From Candidatus Zixiibacteriota bacterium (GTDB taxonomy: Bacteria; Zixibacteria; MSB-5A5; GN15; FEB-12), in the NCBI GenBank assembly GCA_029860345.1, contig JAOUBJ010000022.1, forward strand, positions 1 through 48,542: a DNA stretch of 48,542 bases, read 5' to 3'. The notes under the pieces were generated by a model. It made no database searches and was not told where the DNA came from. It saw nothing but the letters and a program-made list of their open reading frames with translations. Positions 23,978-44,652 of the stretch are shown piece by piece; within the stretch, counting starts at the first letter, position 1; each line of letters starts with the position of its first letter. Position numbers and translations under genes: made by a program.

Positions 23978-24005
23978 TTGACAAAAAGTCAATCGCGGCT
24001 ATATT
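23978..24005 (+). promoter_or_regulatory. Sigma70-type promoter of arylsulfotransferase-like gene 3
   Basis: TTGACA (23978-23983), 16 bases, TATATT (24000-24005) on the plus strand. The predicted leader is about 215 bases, unusually long. The 23772-24226 gap holds the two divergent promoters and nothing else that I can identify. Confidence 0.6.
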
Positions 24006-24226
24006 GATTTCGTTAACACGGTTGGTGTCCTGAGAGATCAAGTTGCTCTCGCTGAGTTGATGCCGATCACTTTGATACTTCTATGACGGTGATTGTTCCA
24101 GTCTGAGACCGCGCCCGAGACACACGACCAACAAAACAGTTGGCAGATCCATTCAAGCCGATAGGCCGGCATAGGTACAACCGAGGCCAGGACCGTTACC
24201 GCGAAGACCGAAAGATTGAGAGGCTT

Positions 24227-26566
24227 ATGGTTTCGACAGGTCTGAAATACACGTGGCTACTCAGTATGTTTCTGGTCATCGCCATGCCCGGGGCCGTGCT
24301 TCAAGCTCAAGATCAGACAATCGGATTATTCGTATATGATTCTGCGGCTTACGAGGGCTATACGTTTTGGTCGCCGCAGCGTAACGTGAACACATTCCTC
24401 ATCGACATGTATGGACGCATGGTGCATACCTGGGCCTCTGAGCATCCCCCCGGGAATGGCGTCTACCTCCTGGAAGATGGCAGTATTCTCCGGCCCGGCC
24501 GGGTGTTGGCCGACGGCAGCAGGGTCATTCAGAGGATAACCTGGGAGGGGACACTCGTCTGGGAACTTCCTTTCACCGATTCTCTGTACAGTCAACATCA
24601 CGACATCGCACCGATGCCCAACGGCAACGTGTTGATCCTGGCTTGGGAGTACAAGACGATGGAGGAGGCCATTGCGGCCGGGCGCGACCCCGCCCTGTTG
24701 ACCGAAAGCGAACTGTGGCCCGAGCATCTGGTCGAGATAGAGCCGGTCGGCTTGAACGGTGGTAACATCGTTTGGGAGTGGCATCTCTGGGATCATGTTA
24801 TACAGGATTTGGACTCGACCAAGGGTAACTACGGAGTCGTAGCCGAGCATCCGGAACTGATCGATCTGAACTTTGCCTTAAATGGCAACGCCGACTGGAT
24901 TCATGCCAACGCCATAGACTATAATGCCGAGTTAGACCAGATTCTGATATGCAGTCGCAGTTTTTCGGAGTACTGGATAATCGATCACAGCACTACTTCG
25001 GCTGAGGCTGCCGGTCACACCGGTGGCTACAGCGCTATGGGTGGGGACATACTATACCGTTGGGGTAACCCCCAGACCTATCGGGCCGGATCGGATTCGG
25101 ATCAGGTTCTGTTTGTCCCGCACAACGCTCAATGGGTCCCTCCGGGTTCGCCGGGTGAGGGAAACATATTGGTCTTCAACAACGGTGGTGACCGCCTCTA
25201 TTCCTCGGCCGATGAGATTGAAACTACCGTGGACGGAAACGGACTTTACCCGCAACCGGACTCCGGTATTGCCCACGGCCCGGCTGAAATGTTCTGGTCC
25301 TACGTAGCCGATCCTCCGGAGGAGTTCCACTCGGCTTTTCTCTCCGGTGTCGAACGAATGCCCAACGGCAATACCCTGATCTGCTCCGGTCGTCCTGGCA
25401 TCTTGTTTGAGGTCACGGCCGACAGTGATGTCGTGTGGCAATATGTCAACCCGGTGGACAAAAACGGCCCACAACCGCAGGGTAACATCCTCACTCAAAA
25501 CCAGGTGTTTCGCTGCAGCCGATTCGCTCCGGACTATCCGGGTCTGCACGGTCGTGACCTGACAGCGGGCGCCGCTTTGGAAATCTATCCAATTACCATA
25601 TCGGGGACGGCCCACAAACCCCAGCTGCCGACTGTGTGGGATTCAGTAGTAATCACGACAACGCTGACCGCCGACTCCGGCCTATTGGCCGCACAACTGT
25701 ACATCGATACCGGCGACGGCTACAACGTGCAAACTCTGTTTGACGACGGCAACCATCATGACGGGCTGGCCGGTGATGATCTGTTCGGCGCCGTCTTGCC
25801 ACCGCTCCCGGAGGGTCTCAGGGTACGCTATTACGTTAACGCTTTGGACGGTGCCGGTCTACTCACCAACGATCCCTCCAACCCGCCCGCGACTGTGTTC
25901 TCTTACCAGGTCGGTTATCGCTCACCCTATATTTTCATAAACGAATTCATCACCAACAACGCCACTTGTTGTCCCGACGAGCATGACGACTATGATGACT
26001 TTATAGAGTTGTACAACTCAGAACATCAGGATGTAAACCTGACCGGGTTCTATCTCACCGATGACAAGTCCAGCCCGGTAAAGTTCCTGATTGGTGACAC
26101 GACGATAGCTGCCGGTGGTTTTGTTACTTTCTGGGCCGACAACCAGCCCGGGCAGGGGATTACTCACACCAATTTCACACTGGAGTTTATCGGCGGCGAG
26201 ATCGGGCTGTACGACACTGATTCACACCGCAACGATCCGGTCGACACGACAACATACGGCCCCCAGGAGACCGATGAGTCCTACGGCCGACTGCCCGACG
26301 GAGGAGTCAACTGGACCAGGTTCCTGGTTCCCACGCCCGATACGGCCAACATTGGATTCCTGTGCGGCGATGTGAACGGTAGTGTAGAGCCGCCCGACAT
26401 TTCTGATCTGGTCTATTTGGTCGATTATATGTTTCTGGGTGGGCCGCCGCCGCCCATGGCCCAGGCGGCCGACATGGACGCAAGTGGTGGACCGCTGGAC
26501 ATTGCCGACCTGGTATACCTGGTCGACTTTATGTTCCAGGGCGGACCGGAACCGATTTGCTTCTAA
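24227..26566 (+). CDS. Secreted arylsulfotransferase-like (ASST) protein, paralogue 3, with lamin-tail-like domain and C-terminal module
   Basis: A 779-residue protein with the same propeller as its two neighbours (QTIGLFVYDSAAYEGYTFWS, HHDIAPMPNGNVLILAWE). HNAQW replaces HDAQW. It is longer because about 120 residues are inserted before the C-terminal module. That insert begins YIFINEFITNNATCC and includes DFIELYNSEHQDVNLTGFYL and PVKFLIGDTTIAAGGFVTFW, the pattern of bacterial lamin-tail domains (LTD), which are often found on surface nucleases and adhesins. The module has 67 residues and ends ICF. The Met at 24227 starts a clear signal peptide. The earlier in-frame TTG at 24140 gives a basic, unlikely N-terminus. 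The activity is not established. Confidence 0.85.
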   Translation: MVSTGLKYTWLLSMFLVIAMPGAVLQAQDQTIGLFVYDSAAYEGYTFWSPQRNVNTFLIDMYGRMVHTWASEHPPGNGVYLLEDGSILRPGRVLADGSRVIQRITWEGTLVWELPFTDSLYSQHHDIAPMPNGNVLILAWEYKTMEEAIAAGRDPALLTESELWPEHLVEIEPVGLNGGNIVWEWHLWDHVIQDLDSTKGNYGVVAEHPELIDLNFALNGNADWIHANAIDYNAELDQILICSRSFSEYWIIDHSTTSAEAAGHTGGYSAMGGDILYRWGNPQTYRAGSDSDQVLFVPHNAQWVPPGSPGEGNILVFNNGGDRLYSSADEIETTVDGNGLYPQPDSGIAHGPAEMFWSYVADPPEEFHSAFLSGVERMPNGNTLICSGRPGILFEVTADSDVVWQYVNPVDKNGPQPQGNILTQNQVFRCSRFAPDYPGLHGRDLTAGAALEIYPITISGTAHKPQLPTVWDSVVITTTLTADSGLLAAQLYIDTGDGYNVQTLFDDGNHHDGLAGDDLFGAVLPPLPEGLRVRYYVNALDGAGLLTNDPSNPPATVFSYQVGYRSPYIFINEFITNNATCCPDEHDDYDDFIELYNSEHQDVNLTGFYLTDDKSSPVKFLIGDTTIAAGGFVTFWADNQPGQGITHTNFTLEFIGGEIGLYDTDSHRNDPVDTTTYGPQETDESYGRLPDGGVNWTRFLVPTPDTANIGFLCGDVNGSVEPPDISDLVYLVDYMFLGGPPPPMAQAADMDASGGPLDIADLVYLVDFMFQGGPEPICF

Positions 26567-26600: not shown

Positions 26601-27827
26601 TCACTTCTGATGGCACTGGATGCATAGATTCATAGTCGGATCGAGGGGCAGGTGTTTTTCATAGTCCGCGCCGTGCAACTGGTGGCAACTCAGGCAGGTC
26701 ATCGCTTGCCCCGTCCGTCGATCTATGGCTTCGGCGCCGATCGGGTGAGCCGACTGGTGGGCGCCGGAATGGCACGACTTGCACAAGTCGACATCCAGAC
26801 TCTTCAACAATAATGAGTTCTCGGAGCCGTGCGGCTGATGGCAGGCGGAACAGGCCTGTGCCTCGTGGGTGATATACTGATCTTTCGGTTTGTCAAACTC
26901 CGGTTTCTGGAAATGACAACTCATGCAAAGATCGACTTGCTTGGCAGCCAGCAGAGCGTCTCCGTTGGCAGCGTGTGGGTTGTGGCAATTGAGGCATGAG
27001 AGTTCGTCATCCAGATTGTGATGATAACTTTCGGCCTTATCATTGCCCATCTGTCCGTGACAACCGGCGCAGAGGTCCCTCACCGGGCTCCTGATGGCGA
27101 ACGCCGCCGTGGCATTGGATGCATGGCACGCCTGGCAGTTACCCTCGGCGAATGGGGCATGCCGGTTGGCCCTCAACAAGCCGGGCATAGATGAAGCATG
27201 TGGATCGTGGCAGGCGACACAATTGGATGAGGCGATTCCTTCCGACTCATGTTTGGCCGTAAAACTCTGGTCGACGGCGTGACAACCCAGACACAGTTGG
27301 GGCGCCGCACTGGTCAGCAAGCGGCCGTTGTCGGAACCATGGGGTGCATGGCATGCGGAACAGCCGTCCGACTTCAGAGGTGCGTGAACAACCGCCGCCT
27401 CGCTCCAGGCCGTGGCCGATTGGTGACAGGACTCGCAAAGAGCGGACCTGGCGCGGTGCAACTGGGAAGGGAAAGATGAGGCGTGCGGGTCATGGCAGTC
27501 CAGGCAGGAACCGGTTTTGGCCGGCGGATGAATCGAATGTTTCTCAATATCGGCGCCGACATCCTCATGACAAGATAGACACAATTCAACAGCATCGTCG
27601 GCCAACAGGGTCGCATGGCGCGAGGCGTGCGGGTTGTGACACGCAGAACACCGGCCGGATGAATAGGCCGTGTGAACATGCTCACCGGCTGCCAATTCCT
27701 CCATGTCGGCATGACACTGGTAGCAAACATCGGGTTGGTCGACAGTGACATTCAGAACTTGAGCCACTGCCGCGCCTGCCATGAATGTTGTCAAGAAAAG
27801 GGTCAATATCCAGCTGCAGGTTTTCAT
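26601..27827 (-). CDS. 16-heme c-type cytochrome of the paired-CXXCH class
   Basis: A 408-residue exported cytochrome with a signal peptide MKTCSWILTLFLTTFMAGAAVAQ. I count 16 CXXCH motifs, from CYQCH to the final CIQCH, arranged as eight repeats in which one motif is followed by PHAS or PHGS and the next by a short helix. This is the doubled-CXXCH pattern. Many extra His residues (HTAYSSGRCSACH, VHAPLKSDGCSACH) can supply distal ligands. It has no membrane anchor, so it is periplasmic or passed to the outer surface. Its ATG overlaps the stop of the 26-heme gene as ATGA, so translation is coupled and both products are probably made in similar amounts. Confidence 0.95.
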   Translation of the reverse strand: MKTCSWILTLFLTTFMAGAAVAQVLNVTVDQPDVCYQCHADMEELAAGEHVHTAYSSGRCSACHNPHASRHATLLADDAVELCLSCHEDVGADIEKHSIHPPAKTGSCLDCHDPHASSFPSQLHRARSALCESCHQSATAWSEAAVVHAPLKSDGCSACHAPHGSDNGRLLTSAAPQLCLGCHAVDQSFTAKHESEGIASSNCVACHDPHASSMPGLLRANRHAPFAEGNCQACHASNATAAFAIRSPVRDLCAGCHGQMGNDKAESYHHNLDDELSCLNCHNPHAANGDALLAAKQVDLCMSCHFQKPEFDKPKDQYITHEAQACSACHQPHGSENSLLLKSLDVDLCKSCHSGAHQSAHPIGAEAIDRRTGQAMTCLSCHQLHGADYEKHLPLDPTMNLCIQCHQK

Positions 27828-29836
27828 TGTTCGTCCTCCTCGGCAGAAGGTGCTTCATGGCAGATAGTACACTCACCTTCGGCAAACGGGCTGTGCGAGT
27901 TGCGTTGCATCATGCCCTCATCCGGCGACGAATGGGCGTCGTGACACATTCGGCAGTCGAGTTTATCGCCCGTCAGACCCAGGTGTTTGGTTGTGAAATC
28001 GGATGTCTCGCCGTCGTGACAAGTCAAACAGAGATCGGCCACCGGTTGCAGCATGAGTCCTTCCTGGACGCTGTGGTGCGGTTGATGGCACTCCAGACAA
28101 TCGCCTTCAGCCGCCGGTGGATGGGCTGTTTCAGATTCCAGTCGCTCTGCCAGCGTTTCATGACAGGTCAGGCAGAGTCGCTGGGGGCGATCGAGCAAAA
28201 AGGCCTCAATCTTGCTGCCATGCGGCTGGTGGCATTCTGTGCACTGTCCTCTCATAACCGGTTCGTGCGCGGATACCATGCCGGCGGCATCGGTTGCATA
28301 ATCGTCATGGCAACCTGAGCAGACCTCACTTTGCTTTTCGACCAGCAGGTTCAGGTGGTTGGAAGAGTGTGGTTGGTGGCAGACATCGCACGCTCCCTCC
28401 TCGTAGGGTGCATGAAGAGCGTCGCCATTGGCCTCGGCCATGGCCGACTGGTGGCACTCGAGGCACAACCCGTTGCGGTCATCCAGTAAGAGCGAGGGAC
28501 CGGCCGAGGCGTGCGGCGCGTGGCAACTATTACATTGTCCAATCTTTATCGGCGCATGAACACTCTTGTGGGTCAGCCAGGATTGCGGATCGTCGTGACA
28601 ATCGAGACAGAGTTCGAAGCGATTCTTCACGGTGAGCGCGCCGTGATCCGACCCGTGCGGCGAATGGCAGTCGGTACAGGAGCCACCCTCAAAAGGTGGA
28701 TGTACATTGTCGAGTTCCTGCTCGTGTCTCTGTTGCTCGTGACAGCCCAGGCACCCTTCGGAGACGTCCCCGGCAATCAAGCCCTCGCTGTTGCCATGAG
28801 CGACATGGCAAAGCGTGCAGTCCTCCCCGGCCGGCTGGTGGCGTGAACTCTTGACCAATTCCAGCGAGACATCGTCATGGCATTCGACACACAGTTGACG
28901 CGGCTTTTTCGATACCAGGGCGGCCCTCCCTGAGCCGTGAGGATTGTGGCAGGAAAGACACTCACCACCCTCGACCGGTGCATGGACCCCCTCCGGCGCG
29001 ACATCTGCCATATCATGACAAGATTCGCAAAGAACCTCGGCCTCGTCAATCAGTCCCCACGGCTGGGCGGCATCCGGCGACTTGTGGCAGGCTTCGCAGT
29101 CCCCGCCCACGACCGGATCGTGAATGCTGTGGGTAAGTAATTTGTCGGTATCAGAACTGTGCGGTGTGTGGCACTGGCTGCAGTCTGAGTCGGCCACCGG
29201 ATAGCCTGAGTGAGCCTTAAGGAATGAGCCGGACGAAGCGTCATGGCAGCTCTTACAAAGTCCTTCATGAGGCTGGTTTAACAGGTACGCATGATCGGCG
29301 CCGTGGATTTCGTGACATGAGGAGCAACCGTCCTCCATGGGGGCGTGCCTGTGTTGTCGTTCAAATTGTTCACGCCCATGACACCCCAAACAAGTCTCAA
29401 TTGCCGGTCGGTCAAGCAGGTTCGGGTGCGAAGCGGCGTGGGGATCATGACAATCCAGACATGCCCCTTTGGCCACCGGCGTATGAACGTGCGACCGCTC
29501 AGCGCCTATCTGATCGGATTCGTGACAACCCAGACACAGGGCCGAACCATCCCGTTTGAGGCGCAGGATACCTATCTTACCGTGTGGTTTGTGACACGAG
29601 AGGCATTCGTTGTCGGCAAACGGTTTGTGTTTGACCGAGCCTTCGAAATCATTGGATGGATGGCACTGGAGACAGTCACCCTTTTTGGCAAATCGTTGGC
29701 CCTTCTTGACCTGACCCCAACTGTGAGGTGTGGCCGCCAGTAAGGCAAAGACCAGAGCAAGAACCATGCTTGGAAGGATGCTCGTTCGTAAGACAACTCT
29801 CGGTCTAAAACGGTTATATGAATTGTAATCGTTCAT
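27824..29836 (-). CDS. 26-heme c-type cytochrome of the paired-CXXCH class
   Basis: A 670-residue exported cytochrome with 26 CXXCH motifs, from CLQCH after the signal peptide to CTICH near the C-terminus. That is about one heme per 25 residues. Thirteen paired modules follow the pattern H.P...G.C..CH.PH.S....L......LC..CH. The N-terminal SMVLALVFALLAATPHSWGQ is the signal peptide. This density gives a heme chain long enough to cross the periplasm or extend from the cell surface, so a long-range wire role is likely (inference). The gene lies 25 bases after the parvulin gene and overlaps the 16-heme gene by four bases. The start ATG lacks a strong ribosome site. Confidence 0.95.
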   Translation of the reverse strand: MNDYNSYNRFRPRVVLRTSILPSMVLALVFALLAATPHSWGQVKKGQRFAKKGDCLQCHPSNDFEGSVKHKPFADNECLSCHKPHGKIGILRLKRDGSALCLGCHESDQIGAERSHVHTPVAKGACLDCHDPHAASHPNLLDRPAIETCLGCHGREQFERQHRHAPMEDGCSSCHEIHGADHAYLLNQPHEGLCKSCHDASSGSFLKAHSGYPVADSDCSQCHTPHSSDTDKLLTHSIHDPVVGGDCEACHKSPDAAQPWGLIDEAEVLCESCHDMADVAPEGVHAPVEGGECLSCHNPHGSGRAALVSKKPRQLCVECHDDVSLELVKSSRHQPAGEDCTLCHVAHGNSEGLIAGDVSEGCLGCHEQQRHEQELDNVHPPFEGGSCTDCHSPHGSDHGALTVKNRFELCLDCHDDPQSWLTHKSVHAPIKIGQCNSCHAPHASAGPSLLLDDRNGLCLECHQSAMAEANGDALHAPYEEGACDVCHQPHSSNHLNLLVEKQSEVCSGCHDDYATDAAGMVSAHEPVMRGQCTECHQPHGSKIEAFLLDRPQRLCLTCHETLAERLESETAHPPAAEGDCLECHQPHHSVQEGLMLQPVADLCLTCHDGETSDFTTKHLGLTGDKLDCRMCHDAHSSPDEGMMQRNSHSPFAEGECTICHEAPSAEEDEQ

Positions 29837-29861
29837 AGTTGTATCAACAACACTCTACAGG

Positions 29862-31556
29862 TCAATTGTCTTCGCCGAAATATGCGGCTATGGCCGCTTC
29901 GTCGTATACTATCTCGGAGGCATCTTTGAGTGACGCCAGCAAGTTGTCGAGCAATTCATTGAATTTGCGCTGAAACATCACTTCACGAATCTGACCGTCG
30001 ACGTCGTCCATACTCTTGACTTCTCCGTCGCGGCGTCCGATGAGTTTGAAAATGACCCAGCCCTCGGCCAAAGCGAAAGGTTCACTGGTTTGTCCCAGAC
30101 TCAAAAGCTCTAAGGCCTCGGAGACAGGACGCGGAAATGTCTTGAGACTCAGCCATTGGTTTTCGTCGTGATCGTCCCCATCCTTGCGTCCCAGCCGGGA
30201 GGCGACATAATCGAAATCGGCGCCGTCAGACAAAAAACCAGCTCCCTTTTCGGCATCGGCTCGATCCTTTAGTTGAAGTACGGCCAGCCGGACTTCGCCC
30301 GGTTCGCGGAATTCTTCGAGATGTTGATCGTAGTAGTCCTTAAACTCCTCACGATTGAAAACCATCTGTTCAACGATGTTCTCATTGAGGTATATCTGCA
30401 CCAGCAGGCTGTCACGCAACGTCGCGATATGTTGGAGTATGGAAGGCCGGTCCGGAAAACCCCGCTCGACGGCGGCAGCCATCAAGCGCGACTGGTGAAT
30501 GGATGCTTCCAGCGCCGTGGCGAGTATCTCTGAAAACGTCTGGTCGCCTGAGTTCATGGCGGCATGGGATATCTCACGTCGCAGGGCTTGCTCCGAGATA
30601 ACTTCGTTTAAGGCGACGCGAACCACACTACGCTCCGAACCGCGCAGAAAATCGCCGAGAAAGACTTTGGATGAGTCGGCTTGTATCCGGGCAAGTGCAC
30701 CGGTATCCACAACCTGGGGGTAGTGTCCGGCCAGGCTGTCCAGAAACTGATTCCAGGCCGACGCTTTGCGTGCATTGGTGAGAACCGTCTTGATTTCCTT
30801 CTCAAAGTAAGCTCTTTCGGCAGGGTCGGCCTCGCTGCGCTGCTCCACTCGGAGAAACATGAAAGCATCACGGAACCTAAAGACCTCCGAGAACTCTCCG
30901 GCGGCCAGGTCGAGGGCCGCTTCGCGCACTTCCATAACCACATCTTTCCAGTGTTTCAGGTTGTGCAATCCCCCTAAGAAACGGCGCGAATCCAGCGAAA
31001 CTTCTCGGGCGATGCTGTCCATCGAGGCGCCCGCTTTGACCTGTGCTAACAGACGTTCGGCCTCGGTGGCCGTGGTGACGCCGATTGTCCGCACCTGCAT
31101 TTTCCAATAGAAGCGTTCAAACTGTTTGGTGATGTCGTCTTCGGACAGCTCAAGAGCGGGCCTAAAAGTTTCTCTCACAAACAGTCGACGAGCCTTCTTG
31201 CGTTGTTCATCACGCAGTCGTTCCACAAAGTCTTCCTCAGCGTCCATCCCCATAGCCTTTGCTTCCTGCATGATCAAACGATCATTGACAAGTTTCTCAA
31301 GCAGCTTTCGGTATTGGAACGACTCTTTCTTTTGGACAGACATGGCGCGGTGAGATGTTACCAGCAACCTGTCCATATCTTCGGAGTCAATCGTATCACC
31401 ATTGACTACGGCCAGGCGCACGGCGCCGGCTCGGGGAGAACTGTAGGCCAGACTACAGGCGGCGAGTATCACAGCAAATAACAGCAGTGTTCTCTCTGCT
31501 ATGCCTGCTCGGCGGTATAGAGTCAATCGTCGTTCAAGGAGTCTGTTTGTGTTCAT
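29862..31556 (-). CDS. Lipoprotein peptidyl-prolyl isomerase/chaperone, SurA/PrsA-like
   Basis: A 564-residue protein with a lipobox ILAAC (Cys34), so it is probably anchored to a membrane on the periplasmic side. A SurA_N-like segment comes first (VRLAVVNGDTIDSEDMDRLL, FQYRKLLEKLVNDRLIMQEA). Two parvulin-like regions follow: one around ASMDSIAREVSLDSRRFLGG, a second around FDYVASRLGRKDGDDHDENQ and WLSLKTFPRPVSEALELLSL. Such isomerases are commonly encoded next to multiheme cytochromes, where they are thought to help folding or export. It overlaps the preceding gene by 23 bases and is followed closely by the 26-heme gene, so it probably serves these cytochromes. Confidence 0.85.
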   Translation of the reverse strand: MNTNRLLERRLTLYRRAGIAERTLLLFAVILAACSLAYSSPRAGAVRLAVVNGDTIDSEDMDRLLVTSHRAMSVQKKESFQYRKLLEKLVNDRLIMQEAKAMGMDAEEDFVERLRDEQRKKARRLFVRETFRPALELSEDDITKQFERFYWKMQVRTIGVTTATEAERLLAQVKAGASMDSIAREVSLDSRRFLGGLHNLKHWKDVVMEVREAALDLAAGEFSEVFRFRDAFMFLRVEQRSEADPAERAYFEKEIKTVLTNARKASAWNQFLDSLAGHYPQVVDTGALARIQADSSKVFLGDFLRGSERSVVRVALNEVISEQALRREISHAAMNSGDQTFSEILATALEASIHQSRLMAAAVERGFPDRPSILQHIATLRDSLLVQIYLNENIVEQMVFNREEFKDYYDQHLEEFREPGEVRLAVLQLKDRADAEKGAGFLSDGADFDYVASRLGRKDGDDHDENQWLSLKTFPRPVSEALELLSLGQTSEPFALAEGWVIFKLIGRRDGEVKSMDDVDGQIREVMFQRKFNELLDNLLASLKDASEIVYDEAAIAAYFGEDN

Positions 31557-32613
31557 TTTCGATTATCCTGGATTGAAAGCGTTTCATGGTATCTTTGAAG
31601 GCGCGGCGAAGCAGCCCGCCCAGTGTGTAACATCGTCCTAATCCAAAGGCCACTTCCGTTTCGGCGCCGTCAAGTTCGGCTGAATGAACGGCCAGTATGC
31701 GTCCGGAAGCGGCATCGATCATCCTGGCGCCAAATCCGAATTCCGGTTTGGAAGATGGTGAGCCGCCCCGCGCCGAGGTGAAACGGTCCACCTGTCCGGT
31801 AATGACAAAGTCCACCTGGAGAGTCTGGTGCAACCTGGCCAGTTGCTGATAGTCGATAGCCCCTACCGGGAATCCCAGGCTGACCGTTTGTTCGTAGGCC
31901 GCGCCCGGCTCAAGCACCGAGAAGCCGCGATCAACCAACTCAGCCAGCATCGAGTTGGCCACGATAAACCCGGCTTGACGATTGTCGGCGATGTTTTCAA
32001 ACGGCAGGACCACTATTCGTGGCGAGGATGAGTCAACGATCACCGCCTCCGGCCACAGAAGCGGTGCATACAATTCGGTCACGGCTTGCGCGACCACTTT
32101 CACGGTCAGGCTGTCGGCATTGCCGATCCGCCCGGTTCCGAAAAGCCCGTAGCCGCCGGCGGTTGCGGCATGACTCACGGCCGAGCAAACAATCATGTCA
32201 TTCGGAGACACCAATCTCAGCGACAGACCAAACTCCGGATTCTCACCGCGGCGGCAAAAATCGACCGAGCCGGTCAACAGCAGATCGGAGCCGGTTTCCT
32301 GCTTGATAATTGCGGCATCAGCCGGAGCGATGCGACCGGCAGAACGGATACGATGCCGTCTGAGAATCGGGCGCAACTGGTGGGAATCGACGACTTCTAT
32401 TTTGAGATTACGTAGGTTGGTATAGATAGCTTCAACAGTCAGGTCGTATGATCGGGTGTCGTCGGTGAAGTTGGCAGGGGAGAGGACCACCGTTTTCAGA
32501 CCGGGTACGGGTATGGGCGTGGTTGATTTCACGGTGTCGGCACGCCCTCCCGAGGCGCAGGCCGGTAGCATCAACAAGGTCAGTATGATTCTTTGTGCAA
32601 CGCTGACTTTCAC
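31534..32613 (-). CDS. CsgG/FlgO-like outer-membrane lipoprotein, two-domain
   Basis: A 359-residue lipoprotein (lipobox LPAC, Cys19 from the GTG start). Two repeated CsgG-type alpha/beta domains are visible. The first has LKTVVLSPANFTDDTRSYDL and GSDLLLTGSVDF, the second has RIVVLPFENIADNRQAGFIV and VDFVITGQVDRF. The GTG at 32613 is chosen because GGAG lies eight bases upstream, five bases after the stop of the previous gene. An in-frame ATG at 32655 would place the lipobox too far from the start. CsgG itself forms the export channel for curli, but relatives also act as plain periplasmic assembly factors. It is in the middle of the cytochrome operon and overlaps the parvulin gene. Confidence 0.7.
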   Translation of the reverse strand: MKVSVAQRIILTLLMLPACASGGRADTVKSTTPIPVPGLKTVVLSPANFTDDTRSYDLTVEAIYTNLRNLKIEVVDSHQLRPILRRHRIRSAGRIAPADAAIIKQETGSDLLLTGSVDFCRRGENPEFGLSLRLVSPNDMIVCSAVSHAATAGGYGLFGTGRIGNADSLTVKVVAQAVTELYAPLLWPEAVIVDSSSPRIVVLPFENIADNRQAGFIVANSMLAELVDRGFSVLEPGAAYEQTVSLGFPVGAIDYQQLARLHQTLQVDFVITGQVDRFTSARGGSPSSKPEFGFGARMIDAASGRILAVHSAELDGAETEVAFGLGRCYTLGGLLRRAFKDTMKRFQSRIIENEHKQTP

Positions 32614-32618
32614 GATAA

Positions 32619-33203
32619 CTACTCCACCAATGTCGAAAGCACTTTCTTCACGCAACGCCGCATGACTTCACTTTGCGACCTTCCTCCGGCGCCGAAGAGC
32701 GAGGCCCAGAAACCACGACCGCTCTCGGTATGAGTGGCCGACCAGACAGTTTCGCCGGTTTCTGTTTCCACCATGCGCACGACCAAAGTGACGACATGTT
32801 CAGGCGCAGATCCACTTCGAGAGGCCGAGGTCTCATTGACCGTACCCAGAAACAAACCCTGCACCCCAAGCGCCTGACCTACCGCTATGATCTGATCTTT
32901 GGTCAAATCGCCGGTGCGCACGGTGGCTTGTTCGTTCAGGACGCGAGTAACTTCGCCCGGCTCGACCACGTCGAAGCTCTCCGACGAGAGAAGTTGTGCG
33001 ATAAAGTATCGGCTGGCCCGTGAGGCGGCGCCGCGCTCGTTGGTCAGGTTTTCAAACGGCACTACCGCCACCCGCTCCACATATCCGAAGTTGTATTCCG
33101 GGTGCAAAAACAAAGTCGGTCGAAGCCCCCCACAGCCGGCCAGTAGCGCCGCCGTCAGCATGACTGACAGCGCGAGTATTCCAGGTATCTTTTTTCTCAG
33201 CAT
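32619..33203 (-). CDS. CsgG-like outer-membrane lipoprotein, single-domain
   Basis: A 194-residue lipoprotein with lipobox LLAGC (Cys24). The domain is a CsgG-type fold: VERVAVVPFENLTNERGAAS, RYFIAQLLSSESFDVVEPGE, IIAVGQALGVQGLFLGTVNE, and a terminal RRCVKKVLSTLVE helix. It is shorter than CsgG (about 260 residues), closer to the LpoB/GNA1162 kind of relative. It is followed five bases on by the two-domain relative, so they were probably made by duplication and may work as one complex. Its place after the beta-barrel gene suggests assembly of, or export through, that barrel. This last point is inference. Confidence 0.75.
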   Translation of the reverse strand: MLRKKIPGILALSVMLTAALLAGCGGLRPTLFLHPEYNFGYVERVAVVPFENLTNERGAASRASRYFIAQLLSSESFDVVEPGEVTRVLNEQATVRTGDLTKDQIIAVGQALGVQGLFLGTVNETSASRSGSAPEHVVTLVVRMVETETGETVWSATHTESGRGFWASLFGAGGRSQSEVMRRCVKKVLSTLVE

Positions 33204-33218
33204 CAGGTTGCTCCTATA

Positions 33219-35321
33219 TCAAAACCCGGACCGCAGGCCCATCTGTAGCGTCCTGGTATGGCGGCCGGCCGCCCGGCTGAAATCGTTATCGTTATAGCTT
33301 ACATAAACGCTGCTTCGATTGTTCAAGCGACAATTCAATCGTGCGCTGTACCGCTGCGAGCGATAGCTGTTGTCGTCCTCGGACAGACGATAGATGAAAC
33401 TGGCGCTGAGGGCCCGACTCATATTCCAACCGGCGCCGATTTCCTTGGTGAGATAGCTGGAGCTTCCTCGTGACCAATCCAGGTCTCCGCGCACAGACAG
33501 CTTGGAGGTCAGGCGCAACCTGAGACCCACCGAATACTGATCACGCAGAAAACGCCCGTCCGTTTCCTGGATCGTGGATGCCTGGTGCGTATAGGCCAGG
33601 GTCGCTTCAATGGAACGCGTGGCGCGGGCGTCGATGGAAAGCCGACGATCCCAGGTGCCGGTAGTGTGGCCGAGCGCGTGTCGGCGGCCCCGACCGTAAC
33701 CGATCTCGCCGTTGAGCCTCAATCCGTTCAATGGTGTCGCGTTGACGTGAGTCATCAGTCGTTGGTTTTCGCTGTCGGCGTCGCCGTCGGCAAACGAACG
33801 GCGGTCGGTGGCCGACCATGACCAATCGAAAGTGGGCAGCGGACTGTACTTCAGGTTATACGCTATTGAATGATCTCTGAGATCGGCGATCTCTCCCCGG
33901 GTGATCTGAAAACTGTGCTGCCACCTGAGGCCGTGAGTAAGTTTATCCGTCTGCAAGCACTGTATCGATCCCGAATGGTAAATGTTGTGGCGGCTGCCCC
34001 GAAGTCCGACCGACGGTTCTCGTTGGTATGACAGGTCGGCCATACTCGACAACCGGTCGCTGATCTTGTAAGTGCCGGCGAGATTGATCGTATGAGCGGT
34101 GTGTTGCTGGGCGATAACACCGGATGTCGGTACTTCGGCCACCGCCTGAATCTCAGTAACAAGCACCCGGCCGGCCTGGTTGAAACCAGAACTGACCGCT
34201 TTGACATAGCGAGCCACAACGGCAGGGAAGACTATCTCGTAACGCTTGACTGAGGCATCGAAGCGAATCTCCGGGTTTACCGCATGAGGCGCCCAGTTGA
34301 AGTTGTCGACCGAGGTGTACACCTGCCATGCTAGCTGATCGTCGGATATCTTGTTGGTGTAAATATACAACGCACCGACCGCTCTCGGCGTACCGAGATG
34401 GACGCCCAGGCTTTGATTCACCATGCCGGTTCCGATATCGATCAACGGCTGGGCCGGCTGCGTAAGGTCGCCGTCGTTCAGAGCCGGGCGAGTTTGCAGC
34501 TGACCGATTTCGACAGCTTCACGATCGCCATACAGTCCGGATGAAATCGGAAGTACGTGCAACACCGTTCCTTCCACAGGCAACTCATCCTTCTGCGAAC
34601 GACGGTTGAAAGAATAATCTGCAGACAGTCTCAGTCGCCGGTCATTCATCATTTTCGAATAGGCCAACCGCAATACGTGCTGGGTCTGCGTTGTTCTAAG
34701 TTTGGAAACTTGGTTTTCGGTTCGGCTGAGAGTAACTCTGTAATTGGAGCCAAAGGAACCGTGCTGGTAATCTACGGTACCGTTTAATCTTTGATCCAGG
34801 AGGTTGCGCCCGGCCACGCCGGGCACGCCGTATAGATGATTGTAATCGTAGCGGCCTGAGATCAGGGCGAATCTTCGTGCACGAGTCCGGAAGCCGACAT
34901 CGAAGGTCTCGTTGGTAAGGCGGTCGGTGGCCGTGGTGCCGTCGGCCACGCGCCTGCGACCATTGGCGCTGATACTGACGGCGGGATGGTTATACAGTAC
35001 CTGAACTGTTGGCTGAGTTTCCTTCTTCCACAGCCCGATCTGCTGGCTGCGTTCGAAAGAGAAGCGGTAATAGCGGTATGATGCCCTGAGCGTCAGGAGG
35101 GGGGTCATATTCCGATACCAAGTACCGGTGAACTCCTGCCTGATTGTGGACCTTAATTCCTCATTTGACCTTGACCTAACGCCGGACAGACTTATATTTC
35201 CGGAGAGGTTGTCCGATAGAATAGCGTGAGACGATTCAGCCGTCACTAATTGCAGGCTGATCAGAACGATAAAACTGAGGATTCTCGTGAGCCATCGATC
35301 AGAAACCGTGTTGGCGCCCAA
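33219..35321 (-). CDS. Large outer-membrane beta-barrel protein, candidate electron-conduit porin
   Basis: A 700-residue protein with a signal peptide (RILSFIVLISLQLVTAESSH) and a continuous alternating strand pattern ending RTLQMGLRSGF, a C-terminal Phe as BAM needs. About 280-405 departs from the barrel and looks like a discoidin/F5-8C-type beta-sandwich (YIYTNKISDDQLAWQVYTSV, YVKAVSSGFNQAGRVLVTEI). Porin-cytochrome conduits of the MtrB or Geobacter kind use barrels of similar size, and the gene context fits. Direct similarity to MtrB was not evident, and no CXXC is present. The start is uncertain: TTG at 35321 has AAGG six bases upstream, while the longer TTG at 35444 has its AGGA directly abutting. 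Confidence 0.7.
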   Translation of the reverse strand: MGANTVSDRWLTRILSFIVLISLQLVTAESSHAILSDNLSGNISLSGVRSRSNEELRSTIRQEFTGTWYRNMTPLLTLRASYRYYRFSFERSQQIGLWKKETQPTVQVLYNHPAVSISANGRRRVADGTTATDRLTNETFDVGFRTRARRFALISGRYDYNHLYGVPGVAGRNLLDQRLNGTVDYQHGSFGSNYRVTLSRTENQVSKLRTTQTQHVLRLAYSKMMNDRRLRLSADYSFNRRSQKDELPVEGTVLHVLPISSGLYGDREAVEIGQLQTRPALNDGDLTQPAQPLIDIGTGMVNQSLGVHLGTPRAVGALYIYTNKISDDQLAWQVYTSVDNFNWAPHAVNPEIRFDASVKRYEIVFPAVVARYVKAVSSGFNQAGRVLVTEIQAVAEVPTSGVIAQQHTAHTINLAGTYKISDRLSSMADLSYQREPSVGLRGSRHNIYHSGSIQCLQTDKLTHGLRWQHSFQITRGEIADLRDHSIAYNLKYSPLPTFDWSWSATDRRSFADGDADSENQRLMTHVNATPLNGLRLNGEIGYGRGRRHALGHTTGTWDRRLSIDARATRSIEATLAYTHQASTIQETDGRFLRDQYSVGLRLRLTSKLSVRGDLDWSRGSSSYLTKEIGAGWNMSRALSASFIYRLSEDDNSYRSQRYSARLNCRLNNRSSVYVSYNDNDFSRAAGRHTRTLQMGLRSGF

Positions 35322-35460
35322 GGCGGACCTTGCCGGTCGTTCGGCAGTCAGCTTTTGGCGCGCAATCCGGCCGCGATTTGGGCTGCTTTCAATCGGCAGC
35401 GAACAGTTGTGGAATCTCGCTTCTGACAATTTCGGTCTCGACAATCCTTTTTAACCGGTC

Positions 35461-35487
35461 AAAAACGCCCGGGCTTACGCCCGGGCG
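35461..35487 (-). terminator. Rho-independent terminator after the OmcS-like gene
   Basis: On the minus strand CGCCCGGGC-GTAA-GCCCGGGCG followed by TTTTT: a perfect 9-bp GC stem, a four-base loop and a U-tract. It starts 51 bases after the OmcS-like stop codon and precedes the barrel gene, so the downstream genes are read through it or from their own promoter. Confidence 0.85.
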
Positions 35488-35498
35488 CGCTACCACGG

Positions 35499-35530
35499 TG
35501 CGAGACCAGCCGAAAGGCTGTTGTCTCGCA
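35499..35530 (-). other. 3'-UTR hairpin of the OmcS-like transcript
   Basis: TGCGAGAC pairs with GTCTCGCA and CAGCC with GGCTG, with a two-base bulge between the stems and a four-base loop (TTTC in the transcribed minus strand, GAAA on the plus strand). It lies between the stop codon and the terminator and probably protects the mRNA 3' end. Confidence 0.65.
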
Positions 35531-35537
35531 TCGTCCT

Positions 35538-36620
35538 TTATGGCGTAATGTGGTCGTCCACATCCTTCACATGACACTTGTTGCAAAGTGAACGCTGATT
35601 CGGGTTGCCATACGCATTCGGAATGGCGTAGGAACCGGACTCATGACCGTCCTCATCCAACAAGGTTACACTGAAATCCCAGCGACCTGCGTTCGGTGCC
35701 GACGTGGCGTGGGCGCGATGGCAGGTCAGGCACATCACTTTACTGGTGGCCGTGGGACCGACAGTAGAGTTGGTGGCCGCACCGGCGTCTTCAAACGGTA
35801 CTGCCGCCAGATATGCCGTCAACTGGCTTCCACCGAGTTGATCGTGAGTGCCGTTGTACAGGTTATAAGCGGTCGCAAGAGTACCGCCGATCGCTGCATC
35901 CGACTTATGGATCAACTTGGTGTTGTTGGCATGGAAATCACCGTGACAGTTACCGCACCAGCCGCTCATACCGGATTTGTAAGCGGTATGATTGCCGTTA
36001 GACTCGCCGCCGCCAAAGAAGAGGCTGGGGCCTCCCGCGGCGTCCGGAGCGTCGTTGGTGAACGTATACAGGCCGTCCTGTACCGTCCGGCCCTGCCCAT
36101 AAAGCATACGGAAATTGGTGTTTCCGTGCGGGTCATGGCAAGAGGAGCAACCCAGCGCCGAAGCCGGGAAAGCTCCACCGGGACCGGCGGCCAATGTAGC
36201 GTCGGCGGCAATACCGCGCGAAGGAGCTACAATGTTGTGACCGGCGGCATCACCCGGGATGGCTTCGGCCCAGGAACCGTCGTCCAGCGTATCACCACCG
36301 CCATGGCCGTCGTTCAAATTGTCTTCCAGCAGAAAGACAAAGTTACCGGCGCCGATCAGTCGCGGCGGAGCCAGCGGATCATCACCAAAGACAGAGCCCA
36401 GGTGATCACCGTGGCAGGAAAGGCAAACGTCACTCGGGGTGGCATCCTTGAGCAGCCAGGCATTGCCGTTGGGGCTGTCCGGATCCACCAGAGTGCCGTC
36501 TTCGCTGTTATGCATGGTATGACATCCGTTGCAGTGCGCCACTCCAGCATCGTGGAAAGCAAAGGCGGAGCCGGCAAGCATAAAGCAAAGGCCAGCTGCT
36601 AACATCAGAAATGTCCGCAC
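35538..36620 (-). CDS. omcS-like: Six-heme OmcS-like nanowire cytochrome
   Basis: A 360-residue exported hexaheme cytochrome. CXXCH motifs start at residues 30, 66, 158, 222, 297 and 346. Segments shared with Geobacter OmcS, as I recall that sequence, run in the same order: FAFHDAGVAHCNGCHTMHNS, GHNIVA, GGAFPASALGCSSCHDPHG, GMSGWCGNCHGDFHANN, AYLAAVPFEDA, CLTCHRAHATSAPNAGRWDF and RSLCNKCHVKD. OmcS polymerises into micrometre filaments that carry electrons outside the cell. This protein is about 70 residues shorter, mainly in the long loops. The GTG at 36620 is chosen because GGAGGT lies seven bases upstream, within the end of the NHL gene. The upstream in-frame TTG has no ribosome site. A terminator follows, so it may be the most abundant product of the locus. 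Confidence 0.85.
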   Translation of the reverse strand: MRTFLMLAAGLCFMLAGSAFAFHDAGVAHCNGCHTMHNSEDGTLVDPDSPNGNAWLLKDATPSDVCLSCHGDHLGSVFGDDPLAPPRLIGAGNFVFLLEDNLNDGHGGGDTLDDGSWAEAIPGDAAGHNIVAPSRGIAADATLAAGPGGAFPASALGCSSCHDPHGNTNFRMLYGQGRTVQDGLYTFTNDAPDAAGGPSLFFGGGESNGNHTAYKSGMSGWCGNCHGDFHANNTKLIHKSDAAIGGTLATAYNLYNGTHDQLGGSQLTAYLAAVPFEDAGAATNSTVGPTATSKVMCLTCHRAHATSAPNAGRWDFSVTLLDEDGHESGSYAIPNAYGNPNQRSLCNKCHVKDVDDHITP

Positions 36621-36621
36621 T

Positions 36622-37800
36622 TCAGTTACCTCCAAAAATAGCAAGTTTCCCCATTGGATTATGATTAGACTCCGGGGCAGAGACTAACATTCTCTCATAG
36701 TATTGGTTTTTGTCTTCGTTTGTAGGGGTACCTCCTTTAACGTGTAGGGTTGATTGCAACCACCCAAGAAAATAGGTGTTCAGATTCTCAATATCTACAT
36801 CCCCCTGATCGGAGTCGCTTGGTGTGACAGACTTCCGGATGAACTCCGGAGTGCGACAAACCTGTATTTTGTTTTGGAATATCTGCCCAATGTAGACGAG
36901 ACCAAGTTGATCCACGTCCAGCAGCGTCGGGTGGTAGAACCAGCCGGGATTGTTGCCGCGACCGCCGAACTCCCCACGGAACTCGCCGTTCAGGTCGTAG
37001 CAAACCACATTAAATCGATGTTTGTCCAGAACCATCACCAGACCGTCACTCAAAACGGCGGCCACCGGGAAATTCAACTCGCCAATACTGGTTCCCTTGT
37101 AACCGACTGAGCGCAATTGTCTGCCATCAAGGCTGTGCATGTACACTCGTCCCAGTGAACCACAGGGAATGAGAATCCGGTCAGCCTGAACGCGCAACTT
37201 GCCCAGCACCTGGCGCCGCCTCACATCCTCTTCCATACTGGTCAGCAGTCCGAAAGAACGCCGGGTCACACCCTCAGGGTCCAGAACGACCACGCGAAAA
37301 GCGATCTCATCGAGGACAAAAAGCTCACCTTGGGGACCGATATCAAAGCTGCCGACCGACCTCCCGCTGCTGTCGAGGCCTTCCGGCAGCTGCACCTCGC
37401 GCAGAAAGAGCCCGTCGAAATCGAAAACGAAAAGTTTCCGGCCTTCTTTGGTGGTTCCCAACACCCAAATGAACCCGTCTGAATCTACGGCCAGATCGAC
37501 CGGCGTGGAGAAGTGCCCGGCGCCTGAGAATTCAAACCGAAAGACGCCCTGGCTGTCGAAAATGGCGACACGGTTGTGACCGGGGTCGGCCACGAGGATT
37601 TCGTTAAACTGTCGGTCGACATAAACCGCTGATGGACGCAGAATCTGGTTGGAGCGTCCGGGGGTCTGCAGATTGCGGATGTATTCGGCCGGAACCGATT
37701 GGGGTTGGGTTTGGGCGCTTGTGGGTGGGGGGTAGTATGAGAAAAAAATCACAAGCAATATGGTAACTTTTCCGATCATGATACTTCTCAATCCAATCAT
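36622..37800 (-). CDS. Secreted NHL-repeat beta-propeller protein
   Basis: A 392-residue exported protein, with a signal peptide of the form ILLVIFFSYYPPPTSAQ and then six NHL-type blades. Examples are ILRPSAVYVDRQFNEILVAD, NRVAIFDSQGVFRFEF, GHFSTPVDLAVDSDGFIWVL and GSFDIGPQGELFVLD. The polar tail after the propeller (about 330-392) has no recognised domain. NHL proteins are frequent neighbours of multiheme cytochromes in Geobacter-type clusters. Their role there is unclear, and a protein scaffold or export function is possible. Its ATG overlaps the stop of the 65-residue ORF as TGATG, and its stop is followed after one base by the OmcS-like start, so all three are translationally coupled. 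Confidence 0.85.
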   Translation of the reverse strand: MIGLRSIMIGKVTILLVIFFSYYPPPTSAQTQPQSVPAEYIRNLQTPGRSNQILRPSAVYVDRQFNEILVADPGHNRVAIFDSQGVFRFEFSGAGHFSTPVDLAVDSDGFIWVLGTTKEGRKLFVFDFDGLFLREVQLPEGLDSSGRSVGSFDIGPQGELFVLDEIAFRVVVLDPEGVTRRSFGLLTSMEEDVRRRQVLGKLRVQADRILIPCGSLGRVYMHSLDGRQLRSVGYKGTSIGELNFPVAAVLSDGLVMVLDKHRFNVVCYDLNGEFRGEFGGRGNNPGWFYHPTLLDVDQLGLVYIGQIFQNKIQVCRTPEFIRKSVTPSDSDQGDVDIENLNTYFLGWLQSTLHVKGGTPTNEDKNQYYERMLVSAPESNHNPMGKLAIFGGN

Positions 37801-37997
37801 CAGGCCCGTAAATAAGAGAATGGGGGTCGCGATTCTCCTGTGGAATGGTAATTCAAACCACCGGAGTGTTCATTGATATTGCGATCTATGTAGCTGTAAC
37901 GCTGTGTAGTACTGCTTGTTGAGCCATTGGCTACGTAGTTTGTTCCACGTAGCGTGGTGAAAGCAACTGAAACCGTGGTAGCATTATTCCAGTTCAT
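37800..37997 (-). CDS. Small leader ORF of the nanowire operon
   Basis: A 65-residue polar protein rich in Ser, Thr, Asn and Tyr, with no signal peptide, Cys or recognised domain. I do not know it. It is called as real for three reasons. A good ribosome site AAGGACGGAAAG precedes the ATG. A near-consensus promoter lies about 30 bases upstream with the leader length expected. Its stop overlaps the NHL start codon as TGATG. It may be a regulatory leader peptide that couples translation, or a small partner of the system. Confidence 0.6.
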   Translation of the reverse strand: MNWNNATTVSVAFTTLRGTNYVANGSTSSTTQRYSYIDRNINEHSGGLNYHSTGESRPPFSYLRA

Positions 37998-38029
37998 GAC
38001 TTTCCGTCCTTAATCACTGTCTTGTGAAT

Positions 38030-38058
38030 AAAATAACAAACTAACTATGCAATGTCAA
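38030..38058 (-). promoter_or_regulatory. Sigma70-type promoter of the nanowire operon
   Basis: On the minus strand TTGACA (38053-38058), 17 bases, TATTTT (38030-38035). The predicted start near 38023 gives a 25-base leader to the 65-aa ORF. TGTGA-ATAAAA-TAACA at 38023-38038 (plus strand) overlaps the -10 and matches the CRP half-sites at nine of ten positions. Confidence 0.7.
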
Positions 38059-38168
38059 GCATTTCTCAATTTTATTTTCAGGAAAAGTGAAATAAAGGGA
38101 GATTTGCTCAGATTTGTATCAGTTTCAGCCGGATGCAGCCAAAACGCCTGCTCCCACCACGAATCCAG

Positions 38169-38969
38169 CTATGGCTCGAAAGCCAGGGTCTTGTCGGATT
38201 GGTCGTGACACCCAAGACAGAGGTCATAAACAGCGTCAAACTTCACCAGACTGTAATCGGCTCCGGAAGTCAAGGAATGGCATGACTGACACTGTATTTC
38301 GTCTTCGAAAAGTCGGATGCGAGGGTCGATCGGGTCTTTCAGCGATCTGTTTTTGCCGGCGGCGACTTCACACTCAATTGGATGGGAGGAATGCAAGTTG
38401 ATGGCGACAGCCTGACGACTATCGTCGTATGGCGCCTTGGAATGTGAACCGTCGGTGTGGCAGGCCAGACAAGACTGGGAGGGACTTTGGTCGCTTGGCC
38501 TTGGGTTTTCCGCATGGTAAAACCCCACCGCGGCATCCCGATGCGCCTCAGACAAGTTAGTCAGAGAACCGGATGAATTATGGCAGGAACGGCACTGGTA
38601 TCGCCCGCCTTCATTAGCCGGTGATGCAAACATTCGGTCACCTGCTACCAGCCTGGCCGTCTCATGAAAGGAATGGCATTTAGCACAGTTCATGTCATTC
38701 CGGCTGTGAAACTGTTCGGCCAGGCTCCCCGGCTCTGATGCACTATTAGTATGGCATGAGCGACACTGGTTTTCTCCAGAGACAGGGGTGGCATCGGCAG
38801 CACTAACTTGCCAGTGACAACCCCGACAGGATGCCTGCTGATGCGCTATCGGCGCCGATGCCTGGGTCCTCGTCGCCGCTTGGGGTGAGCGCTGTCGGTC
38901 TGTGGAACTGGTGGCAGTTGACAGACCTATGATGAATACGGCTAAGGCCGTTAGTAATCGTGGCCGCAT
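38169..38969 (-). CDS. Seven-heme c-type cytochrome
   Basis: A 266-residue exported cytochrome with seven CXXCH motifs (CRGCH, CRSCH, CAKCH, CRSCH, CLACH, CQSCH, CLGCH) and a signal peptide MRPRLLTALAVFIIGLSTAT. The Met at 38969 is chosen. The frame is open 70 codons further upstream, but that part is basic and Arg/Ser-rich and is probably untranslated. The order of motifs does not match a cytochrome I know. It has extra His and Phe residues near the motifs (KCHSFHETARL). It ends 171 bases before the nanowire operon starts on the same strand, so it is probably a separate unit of the same system. No membrane anchor is present, so it is likely periplasmic. Confidence 0.85.
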   Translation of the reverse strand: MRPRLLTALAVFIIGLSTATSSTDRQRSPQAATRTQASAPIAHQQASCRGCHWQVSAADATPVSGENQCRSCHTNSASEPGSLAEQFHSRNDMNCAKCHSFHETARLVAGDRMFASPANEGGRYQCRSCHNSSGSLTNLSEAHRDAAVGFYHAENPRPSDQSPSQSCLACHTDGSHSKAPYDDSRQAVAINLHSSHPIECEVAAGKNRSLKDPIDPRIRLFEDEIQCQSCHSLTSGADYSLVKFDAVYDLCLGCHDQSDKTLAFEP

Positions 38970-39168
38970 AAAGTCTTTTATCGGCCTTTGACTTCGTAAA
39001 GAGAATACTGTGCGACCAGACAATCTGTTTGACCGTGGCCGATGTTTAGAATCTGCACAGGCGCGCTTGTTCTCTGTGCTTCGCGCGCTTCGCATTAATA
39101 AGATAACGTAAACACAAAGACACGGCTTGACCGCTCGTTCTCCGAGTGGGCTCGAACTGACATGGTTC

Positions 39169-39194
39169 GGCGGACACAAGGCCTGCCGCTACGC
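39169..39194 (+). repeat. Dispersed repeat, family 3 (copy 1)
   Basis: A 26-base block GGCGGACACAAGG...CCGCTACGC, matching 47803-47828 at 23 of 26 positions. The 39000-39312 gap also holds a family 1 element at 39210 and no gene that I can support. Confidence 0.55.
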
Positions 39195-40395: not shown

Positions 40396-41592
40396 ATGGT
40401 TAACGTCAAACGGTTCGCGTTGGTGCTCGGGCTGGCCTGCTTGGTGCCGGTCATCACGGTCTCGGCCGGCATGGAGCCGGGAGAGTTCAAGTTGGGTGGA
40501 AAAGGGTACTTTTTCTACAATCACTCTATGAGCGATGGCGGGGCAGGTCAAGACAATGAATTCGACGTCTCACGTCTGTATTTTGGAGCCAAGTTCCAGA
40601 TTTCGGAGAAGTTCATGGCCCAGTACATGACCGACATCGCTCACGAGGGTGGCGGAGAGTTTGAGTCGTTTGCCAAGTATGCCTTGCTTGACTGGAAAAT
40701 GGATGCTTTGAGCCAATGGAACGGTCACTTGGTGTTGGGCTTGCAGTCCACTTACAACTGGAAGATCCCCGAAGCCGCCTGGGGTTATCGCTCCATTCGT
40801 TACTCACCCATGGAGTCATTCGGGAAATACTTCAGTAGTGCTCGTGGAGACTACGAAGACATGCTCGAAGCTTGGGCGGATAGCCTCTATGATGAGGACA
40901 CATCGGCCGACGACGCCAAGGCGGACGAGGTCATGAGTCAAATGAACAATTTCCACGATGTCTCAACGAGTAAAATGGCCTCCTCGGCCGACCTCGGCGT
41001 GGCGCTTAAACTCAAGCCTACTGACAGACACTATGTGTACTTGATGATTCGCAACGGTGGCGGCTACAAAAAAGCCGAGACCGACATGTACAAGAACTAC
41101 CAGGCGCGGGTCGGATTTTATCTCCTCGAGAACAAGGAATTGCATTTTTCGGCGATGGCCGAGCTTGAGCCGATTGAGGGACACGACAAGGACGGCGCGG
41201 TGAAGAGGCGTCAGAACCTTCAGTGGGACCTGATGGCTGCCTACGAGCAGAAGGGCAAATTCCTCATCGCCGGCAACGTAAACGCCAAAAAGTTTCCGGG
41301 CGTGATCGACGACATTACTGCTACCTGCCTTTCGGGTTTCGGCAACGTCTATCTGGCTGCCAATAAGTTGAAGGCGCTGGGGCGTGTGGATTTGTACAAG
41401 ACCGGCTTCAACGATGCTCAAATGAATCCCGCAATGCCGAAGATGGAGTCCAACGCCACTCTGATCATTGCCGGACTGGATTGGATGCCCGACAAAAAGG
41501 TTCACATCATGCCGAATGTGCAGATACTATCTTTTGAAGGCGAAGGTGATAGCGTGAAGGACTTCTACATTCATGTGGAGTTCAAGTTCTAG
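40396..41592 (+). CDS. Outer-membrane porin-like protein
   Basis: A 398-residue exported beta-barrel: signal peptide MVNVKRFALVLGLACLVPVI, TVSAG cleavage region, then strands such as EFKLGGKGYFFYNHSMSDG and FDVSRLYFGAKFQISEKFM and a C-terminal Phe (FYIHVEFKF). The opening resembles phosphate-selective (O/P-type) porins. A long polar loop at about 145-190 (FSSARGDYEDMLEAWADSLY) may line or cap the pore. The ribosome site is AGGAGGT, nine bases upstream. It lies 453 bases before the ArrA-type reductase gene on the same strand. An oxyanion-uptake role for this reductase is a reasonable guess and no more. Confidence 0.8.
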   Translation: MVNVKRFALVLGLACLVPVITVSAGMEPGEFKLGGKGYFFYNHSMSDGGAGQDNEFDVSRLYFGAKFQISEKFMAQYMTDIAHEGGGEFESFAKYALLDWKMDALSQWNGHLVLGLQSTYNWKIPEAAWGYRSIRYSPMESFGKYFSSARGDYEDMLEAWADSLYDEDTSADDAKADEVMSQMNNFHDVSTSKMASSADLGVALKLKPTDRHYVYLMIRNGGGYKKAETDMYKNYQARVGFYLLENKELHFSAMAELEPIEGHDKDGAVKRRQNLQWDLMAAYEQKGKFLIAGNVNAKKFPGVIDDITATCLSGFGNVYLAANKLKALGRVDLYKTGFNDAQMNPAMPKMESNATLIIAGLDWMPDKKVHIMPNVQILSFEGEGDSVKDFYIHVEFKF

Positions 41593-44634: not shown

Positions 44635-44652
44635 GGTTAGGAGGATATGACA

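Follow-up and report, generated by a model that had tools for sequence, protein, structure and literature searches.

The stretch analysed here (the window) is the 48,542-nucleotide contig JAOUBJ010000022.1 (contig C22 of our set) from a Candidatus Zixiibacteriota bacterium whose genome is 4.76 Mb long and 99% complete, and it carries on its minus strand a Zixibacteria osc (omcS-companion) operon, which is one more example of a system described only recently, and not a new kind of system. We consider it likely, with a probability of roughly 0.8, that this operon makes, folds and exports filaments of an OmcS-like hexaheme cytochrome, and that it probably also feeds them electrically. We favour this reading because OmcS is the only relative of the hexaheme protein in the PDB, because 12 His are conserved in its family, because the gene order is that of a Geobacteraceae genome (G158) and is kept in about ten phyla, and because the genes for the OmcS-like protein and for the parvulin lipoprotein OscH occur together. 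The gene content, order, conservation and 12 axial His come from the present analysis; what is said of folding, secretion and morphology is borrowed from the Geobacter literature.

Gene order and conservation of the osc operon

The osc operon was reported in 2025 as the machinery that folds and secretes OmcS nanowires in Geobacter sulfurreducens (GSU2493-GSU2505; PMC13194489, PMC12977616). In these reports, OscH is assigned to folding and OscD to morphology, OscE, OscF and OscG are proposed to act in secretion, and OscI and OscJ correspond to GSU2495 and GSU2494 (PMC13194489), while GSU2500-2493 form an eight-gene block in which GSU2495 encodes a 26-heme protein (PMC12977616). The hallmark combination, an omcS-family gene adjoining genes for a barrel, two CsgG-like lipoproteins, a parvulin and 26- and 16-heme cytochromes, was found in the window. 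Its eight genes from the NHL propeller gene to the 16-heme gene (37800 down to 26601) follow one another with an overlap or a gap of at most 93 bp at each junction, the OscI stop and the OscJ start overlapping as ATGA (Table 1). The gene order and the heme counts (6+26+16+7) given by the initial annotation were reproduced, all on the minus strand, and in residue shuffles of the same proteins the CXXCH motif occurred with means of 0.02-0.4 and never more than three times. Domain matches from Pfam/NCBIfam supported the propeller, both CsgG-like proteins, the SurA-N/rotamase protein and the paired-CXXCH cytochromes.

The order in the Geobacteraceae genome G158 is NHL, OmcS, OscC-position copy, YVTN, barrel, CsgG, CsgG, parvulin, 26-heme, 16-heme and NHL, which matches the published osc operon. 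With that of G. sulfurreducens the window shares the NHL, hexaheme, barrel, two lipoprotein, parvulin and 26- and 16-heme genes in the same order and orientation, and its NHL gene sits at the GSU2505 position, upstream of omcS, as it does in most relatives and in G158. Unlike the Geobacter operon, which has OmcS, OmcT and OscC, the window has a single hexaheme copy; no YVTN propeller gene separates its hexaheme gene from its barrel gene (GSU2500 position) and no NHL gene follows OscJ, it has an extra 7-heme cytochrome upstream, and its proteins are about 20-38% identical to their Geobacteraceae counterparts. The letter order and a reported length of 473 aligned residues indicate that the YVTN propeller encoded at the GSU2500 position is probably OscD. 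In Desulfovibrio ferrophilus, too, NHL genes adjoin those of large multiheme cytochromes (DFE_0448-0451 and DFE_0461-0465; PMC9769857, PMC7005843), the comparison covering this feature.

The initial annotation had seen in the locus an OmcS-like filament cytochrome within a conserved assembly and export gene set outside the Geobacter lineage, and had made this depend on conservation of the set in relatives; homology and synteny bear it out. The order NHL-OmcS-E-F-G-H-I(26)-J(16) was found in about ten phyla, a Geobacteraceae genome included: it occurs in Zixibacteria, Krumholzibacteriota, Acidobacteriota, Gemmatimonadota, Fibrobacterota and Calditrichota; the versions in Nitrospirota, Myxococcota and Desulfuromonadia are more diverged. 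Within the phylum of the window, osc copies were present in about 18 of 132 genomes, and OmcS-like and OscH-like genes stood together in 16 of the 132 and apart in three (Fisher p=1.6e-17), at least two of these three having contigs truncated at that place. The genus of the window is represented by six further genomes, none of which has a real osc copy. The YVTN propeller gene was present in 21 of 44 loci, with at least 11 changes on the OmcS tree, and because of this patchy occurrence we regard it as an optional module that does not define the operon. One locus labelled Calditrichaeota (L001) groups with the window's phylum; GTDB and NCBI names can differ.

The OmcS-like hexaheme protein

OmcS was the sole PDB sequence to match the six-heme protein (6ef8, phmmer E=1.4e-38), and a profile of 26 relatives aligned with OmcS from the first to the last residue (E=1.4e-105). 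A Foldseek search with a low-confidence monomer model likewise returned 6ef8 as its only match (template modelling score, TM, 0.41). The protein resembles the subunit of the OmcS filament (PDB 6EF8/6NEF) in having six CXXCH motifs in the same order and a mature N-terminus of the form FH(S/D)xGVAxCxGCHTMHNS, which probably begins at F30 in the window protein as it does at F1 in OmcS; it differs in being only about 31-33% identical and shorter by about 70 residues, with the difference mostly in loops.

Among 74 homologues exactly 12 His were conserved at 99% or more, six of them in the CXXCH motifs and six elsewhere (H31, H45, H136, H173, H246 and H312 of the window protein), and the same 12 were kept in a distant group of 12 homologues. 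In the alignment, all 12 axial His positions of the window protein match those of OmcS. H45 aligns with OmcS His16, within CEGCHTMH, which we take to be the ligand that OmcS provides across the subunit boundary. The published OmcS structure has His at every one of its 12 axial positions, 11 supplied by the subunit itself and one by its neighbour (PMC6584659). Since the family has no spare conserved His, one heme of a monomer would lack its distal ligand. This pattern is the best sequence argument for polymerisation, though an indirect one, and from it we infer that the window protein would form filaments.

Several loci of Zixibacteria (L112-L123) encode a distinct short six-heme family of 323-349 aa, 23-28% identical to the window protein, in which all 12 axial His are kept and whose genes adjoin those of 4-9-heme cytochromes and OscJ-like proteins; it is possibly another filament family.

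OscI, OscJ, the OscE barrel and the proposed route

Of 28 complete OscI relatives, 21 have 26 hemes and five are fused with OscJ and have 41-42, the remainder being one with 25 hemes and one with 21 in an odd overlapping frame; all eight complete OscJ relatives have 16. These counts are near-constant at 35-49% sequence identity, so that 26 and 16 hemes are the standard sizes of OscI and OscJ. Contrary to what had been proposed from the sequence at the outset, the linker cytochromes are thus not much longer than usual, the same numbers being found in nearly every complete relative, Geobacteraceae included, and 26 hemes also in GSU2495 (PMC12977616). The fusions (L039, L040, L044, L047 and L048) are single open reading frames (ORFs) of 1077-1354 aa in Gemmatimonadota, in Fibrobacter-labelled and in Krumholzibacteriia metagenome-assembled genomes (MAGs). 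The OscJ signal peptide is missing at the junction (shown for L044), which argues that they are not simple frame errors. In a quick tree of the OscI part the fusions took up two distinct positions, and the hypothesis of one common origin was rejected (approximately unbiased test, p-AU 0.0084), indicating that the fusion of OscI and OscJ arose at least twice independently.

The best PDB match of both OscI and OscJ was the MtrA chain 6r2q_A, the entry 6r2q being the Mtr complex despite the odd molecule name printed for chain A. Their MtrA similarity, constant heme number and fusion are the grounds for assigning them a role in electron feeding, and suggest, with an OscE model that comes nearest to MtrB in size and fold, that OscI and OscJ together with OscE may form an MtrAB-like feed line to the filament. 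At the spacing of the OmcS filament, which rises 48 A per six hemes or about 8 A per heme (PMC6584659), the length covered would be about 21 nm for 26 hemes and about 34 nm for 42, figures that are arithmetic and not a model. The two independent 26+16 fusions and the near-constant heme counts would be expected if the proteins were joined end to end under a constraint on length. A more speculative proposal, which we advance tentatively and would not yet bet on, is that OscI and OscJ join into an unbroken cable of 42 hemes and fixed length, which crosses the periplasm, enters the MtrB-sized OscE barrel and connects to the OmcS filament at its base; the export machine would then double as an electrical socket.

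The AlphaFold model of OscE (predicted local distance difference test, pLDDT, 89) has about 28 barrel strands. Strand 11 is followed by an inserted discoidin-like domain, which in this model would face outwards if the N-terminus of OscE is periplasmic. The insert was found in all 31 aligned barrel sequences, including those of Geobacteraceae, in which the G158 barrel is a 758-aa ORF. The idea that it stands in for the absent OscD was rejected, since it occurs with or without OscD and in Geobacteraceae too. PDB sequence searches with the barrel and with the first CsgG-like lipoprotein gave no match.

Taken together, our preferred reading is that the OmcS-like protein would enter the periplasm by the Sec route and receive its six hemes there, that the parvulin lipoprotein OscH would aid its folding, and that its exit would be by way of an outer-membrane machine in which the barrel OscE is combined with the two CsgG-like lipoproteins, OscF and OscG. 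Once outside the cell, the subunits would polymerise head to tail, His45 acting as the distal ligand of a neighbour's heme as in OmcS, and OscI (26 hemes) and OscJ (16 hemes), as MtrA-like periplasmic wires, would most likely bring electrons to the filament base. To call the system self-contained, as the initial annotation did, goes too far, because no electron donor to it was identified; a search of the genome for an upstream donor gave only weak NapC/NirT matches.

Several observations weigh against this reading. Neither the operon nor the rest of the genome has the YVTN propeller gene, which the same query did find in five genomes of the phylum that carry osc; the NHL gene after OscJ (GSU2493 position) is not present, the next gene downstream being arylsulfotransferase-like and on the opposite strand; and the heme-free AlphaFold monomer of the six-heme protein is poor (pLDDT 52). 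Wire formation is known for OmcS itself only, the OscC-type paralogue adjoining the block may have another job (PMC12977616), and the physiological role of OmcS filaments is disputed (PMC11077965, PMC13194489). Finally, the window protein branches outside the group to which the OmcS copy and the OscC-position copy of G158 both belong (100/100 support) and is about equally distant from the two G158 copies. On this tree, because of its position outside their group, it is best described as co-orthologous to both, and its assignment as strictly OmcS or strictly OscC was rejected. That placement, together with a gene that stands directly before the barrel gene much as OscC adjoins the block, would also fit a secretion system of the osc type that exports, in place of a filament former, a hexaheme OscC-like terminal reductase, either soluble or at the cell surface, polymerisation having arisen only in Geobacter-type OmcS. 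We judge this unlikely, as the His that corresponds to the cross-subunit ligand is kept at 99-100% throughout the homologues, the distant group included, and a reductase working as a monomer would face the same lack of a spare His.

The barrel with OscI and OscJ could alternatively serve not secretion but primarily electron transfer, as a porin-cytochrome conduit of the MtrCAB type in which the OmcS-like protein would be the outer cytochrome. Like MtrCAB (PDB 6R2Q), the window has a large outer-membrane barrel and paired-CXXCH cytochromes that match MtrA, and MtrB (6r2q_B) had the highest TM (0.41-0.43) among the top 50 Foldseek matches of the ~28-strand OscE model. However, these values lie below 0.5 and large barrels match many other proteins with better E-values; unlike MtrCAB, the window barrel has the discoidin-like insert, the cytochromes carry 26+16 hemes and not 10, and the operon is without an MtrC-type outer cytochrome and has secretion-type partners. 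The two CsgG-like lipoproteins and the SurA-like parvulin point to secretion, and OscE, OscF and OscG have been proposed as components for OmcS secretion in Geobacter (PMC13194489), so that the barrel need not be the conduit that it was first taken for. We therefore give this alternative little credence as the primary function, although conduit and secretion functions may coexist.

Apparent spread between phyla, neighbouring genes and significance

Table 1. Positions of the osc operon genes and flanking features in the window
Feature	Positions	Strand	Evidence or remark
16-heme cytochrome, OscJ-type	26601..27827	-	16 CXXCH; MtrA 6r2q_A E=1e-21
26-heme cytochrome, OscI-type	27824..29836	-	26 CXXCH; MtrA 6r2q_A E=1e-15
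Lipoprotein, OscH-type, SurA-N and two parvulin (rotamase) domains	29862..31556	-	PF13145 4.6e-20, PF00639 6e-9
CsgG/FlgO-like lipoprotein, OscG-type	31534..32655	-	PF17680 5e-5; synteny
CsgG/LpoB-like lipoprotein, OscF-type, lipobox LAGC	32619..33203	-	PF03783 1.2e-6, PF13036 1.4e-6; synteny
Outer-membrane beta-barrel, OscE-type, discoidin-like insert	33219..35444	-	likely start near 35306
OmcS-like hexaheme cytochrome, proposed filament subunit	35538..36644	-	6 CXXCH; homology to OmcS
NHL/6-bladed beta-propeller, secreted	36622..37800	-	PF01436 4e-9, PF17170 3e-7
65-aa ORF, probably no gene	37800..37997	-	no domain, no relatives in fetched loci
7-heme cytochrome upstream of operon	38169..38969	-	7 CXXCH

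The 65-aa ORF, which had been listed as a member of the operon, is probably not a gene: it gave no Pfam match, has no relative among the fetched loci and shows no signal peptide by eye. The ORF of the 7-heme cytochrome spans 38169-39179, with M71 the likely start, so that the gene ends at 38969. Relatives were found at the equivalent place, upstream of the NHL gene, in four loci (L001, L002, L015 and L017), and the protein was seen only beside the closest osc clusters; it may be a candidate lineage-specific electron donor.

The OmcS tree mixes phyla, Acidobacteriota falling for example inside Krumholzibacteriota, a pattern that speaks for gene transfer across phyla or for misbinned MAGs; the nanowire machinery has apparently moved between phyla as a cassette. 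Near-identical OmcS-like proteins in three MAGs labelled Latescibacterota, Fibrobacter and Gemmatimonas (L046, L047 and L048) suggest that transfer was recent or that the MAGs are misbinned or mislabelled.

Elsewhere in the window, positions 40396-46840 of the plus strand hold a respiratory enzyme cluster oriented away from the osc operon and headed by a 398-aa barrel-like protein without a Pfam match, followed by a molybdopterin oxidoreductase exported by twin-arginine translocation (Tat), a 4Fe-4S subunit and two TorD/NarJ-like chaperones. On the other side, positions 11815-26566 encode five large secreted proteins with a common C-terminal dockerin-like repeat (DISDLVYLVDYMF..GGPPPP), three of which, adjoining the osc operon, are arylsulfotransferase-like. 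A second large multiheme region with NHL proteins lies on another contig of the same genome (C12:59751-93812; L087-L089). Its cytochromes have 13, 17, 9, 10, 4, 4, 7, 5 and 11 hemes, the 11-heme one being part of an ORF of 2719 aa, and it includes a 719-aa protein that may be barrel-like and possible cytochrome c biogenesis genes.

The details that are new here are the absence of the YVTN propeller, the two independent OscI-OscJ fusions and the ~28-strand OscE with its conserved insert. Explanations of the way in which OmcS filaments are anchored to the cell surface and charged there are still called speculative (PMC12307469). To this question, the near-constant pair of 26- and 16-heme proteins, sometimes a single 42-heme protein, beside an MtrB-sized barrel offers a testable answer. 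Most interesting is the comparison across genomes, with its near-constant heme numbers, its repeated 26+16 fusion and its MtrB-sized barrel beside secretion factors. Nanowire machinery is present not only in relatives of Geobacter but also in candidate phyla that are frequent in the subsurface (Zixibacteria, Krumholzibacteriota, Eisenbacteria and Acidobacteriota).

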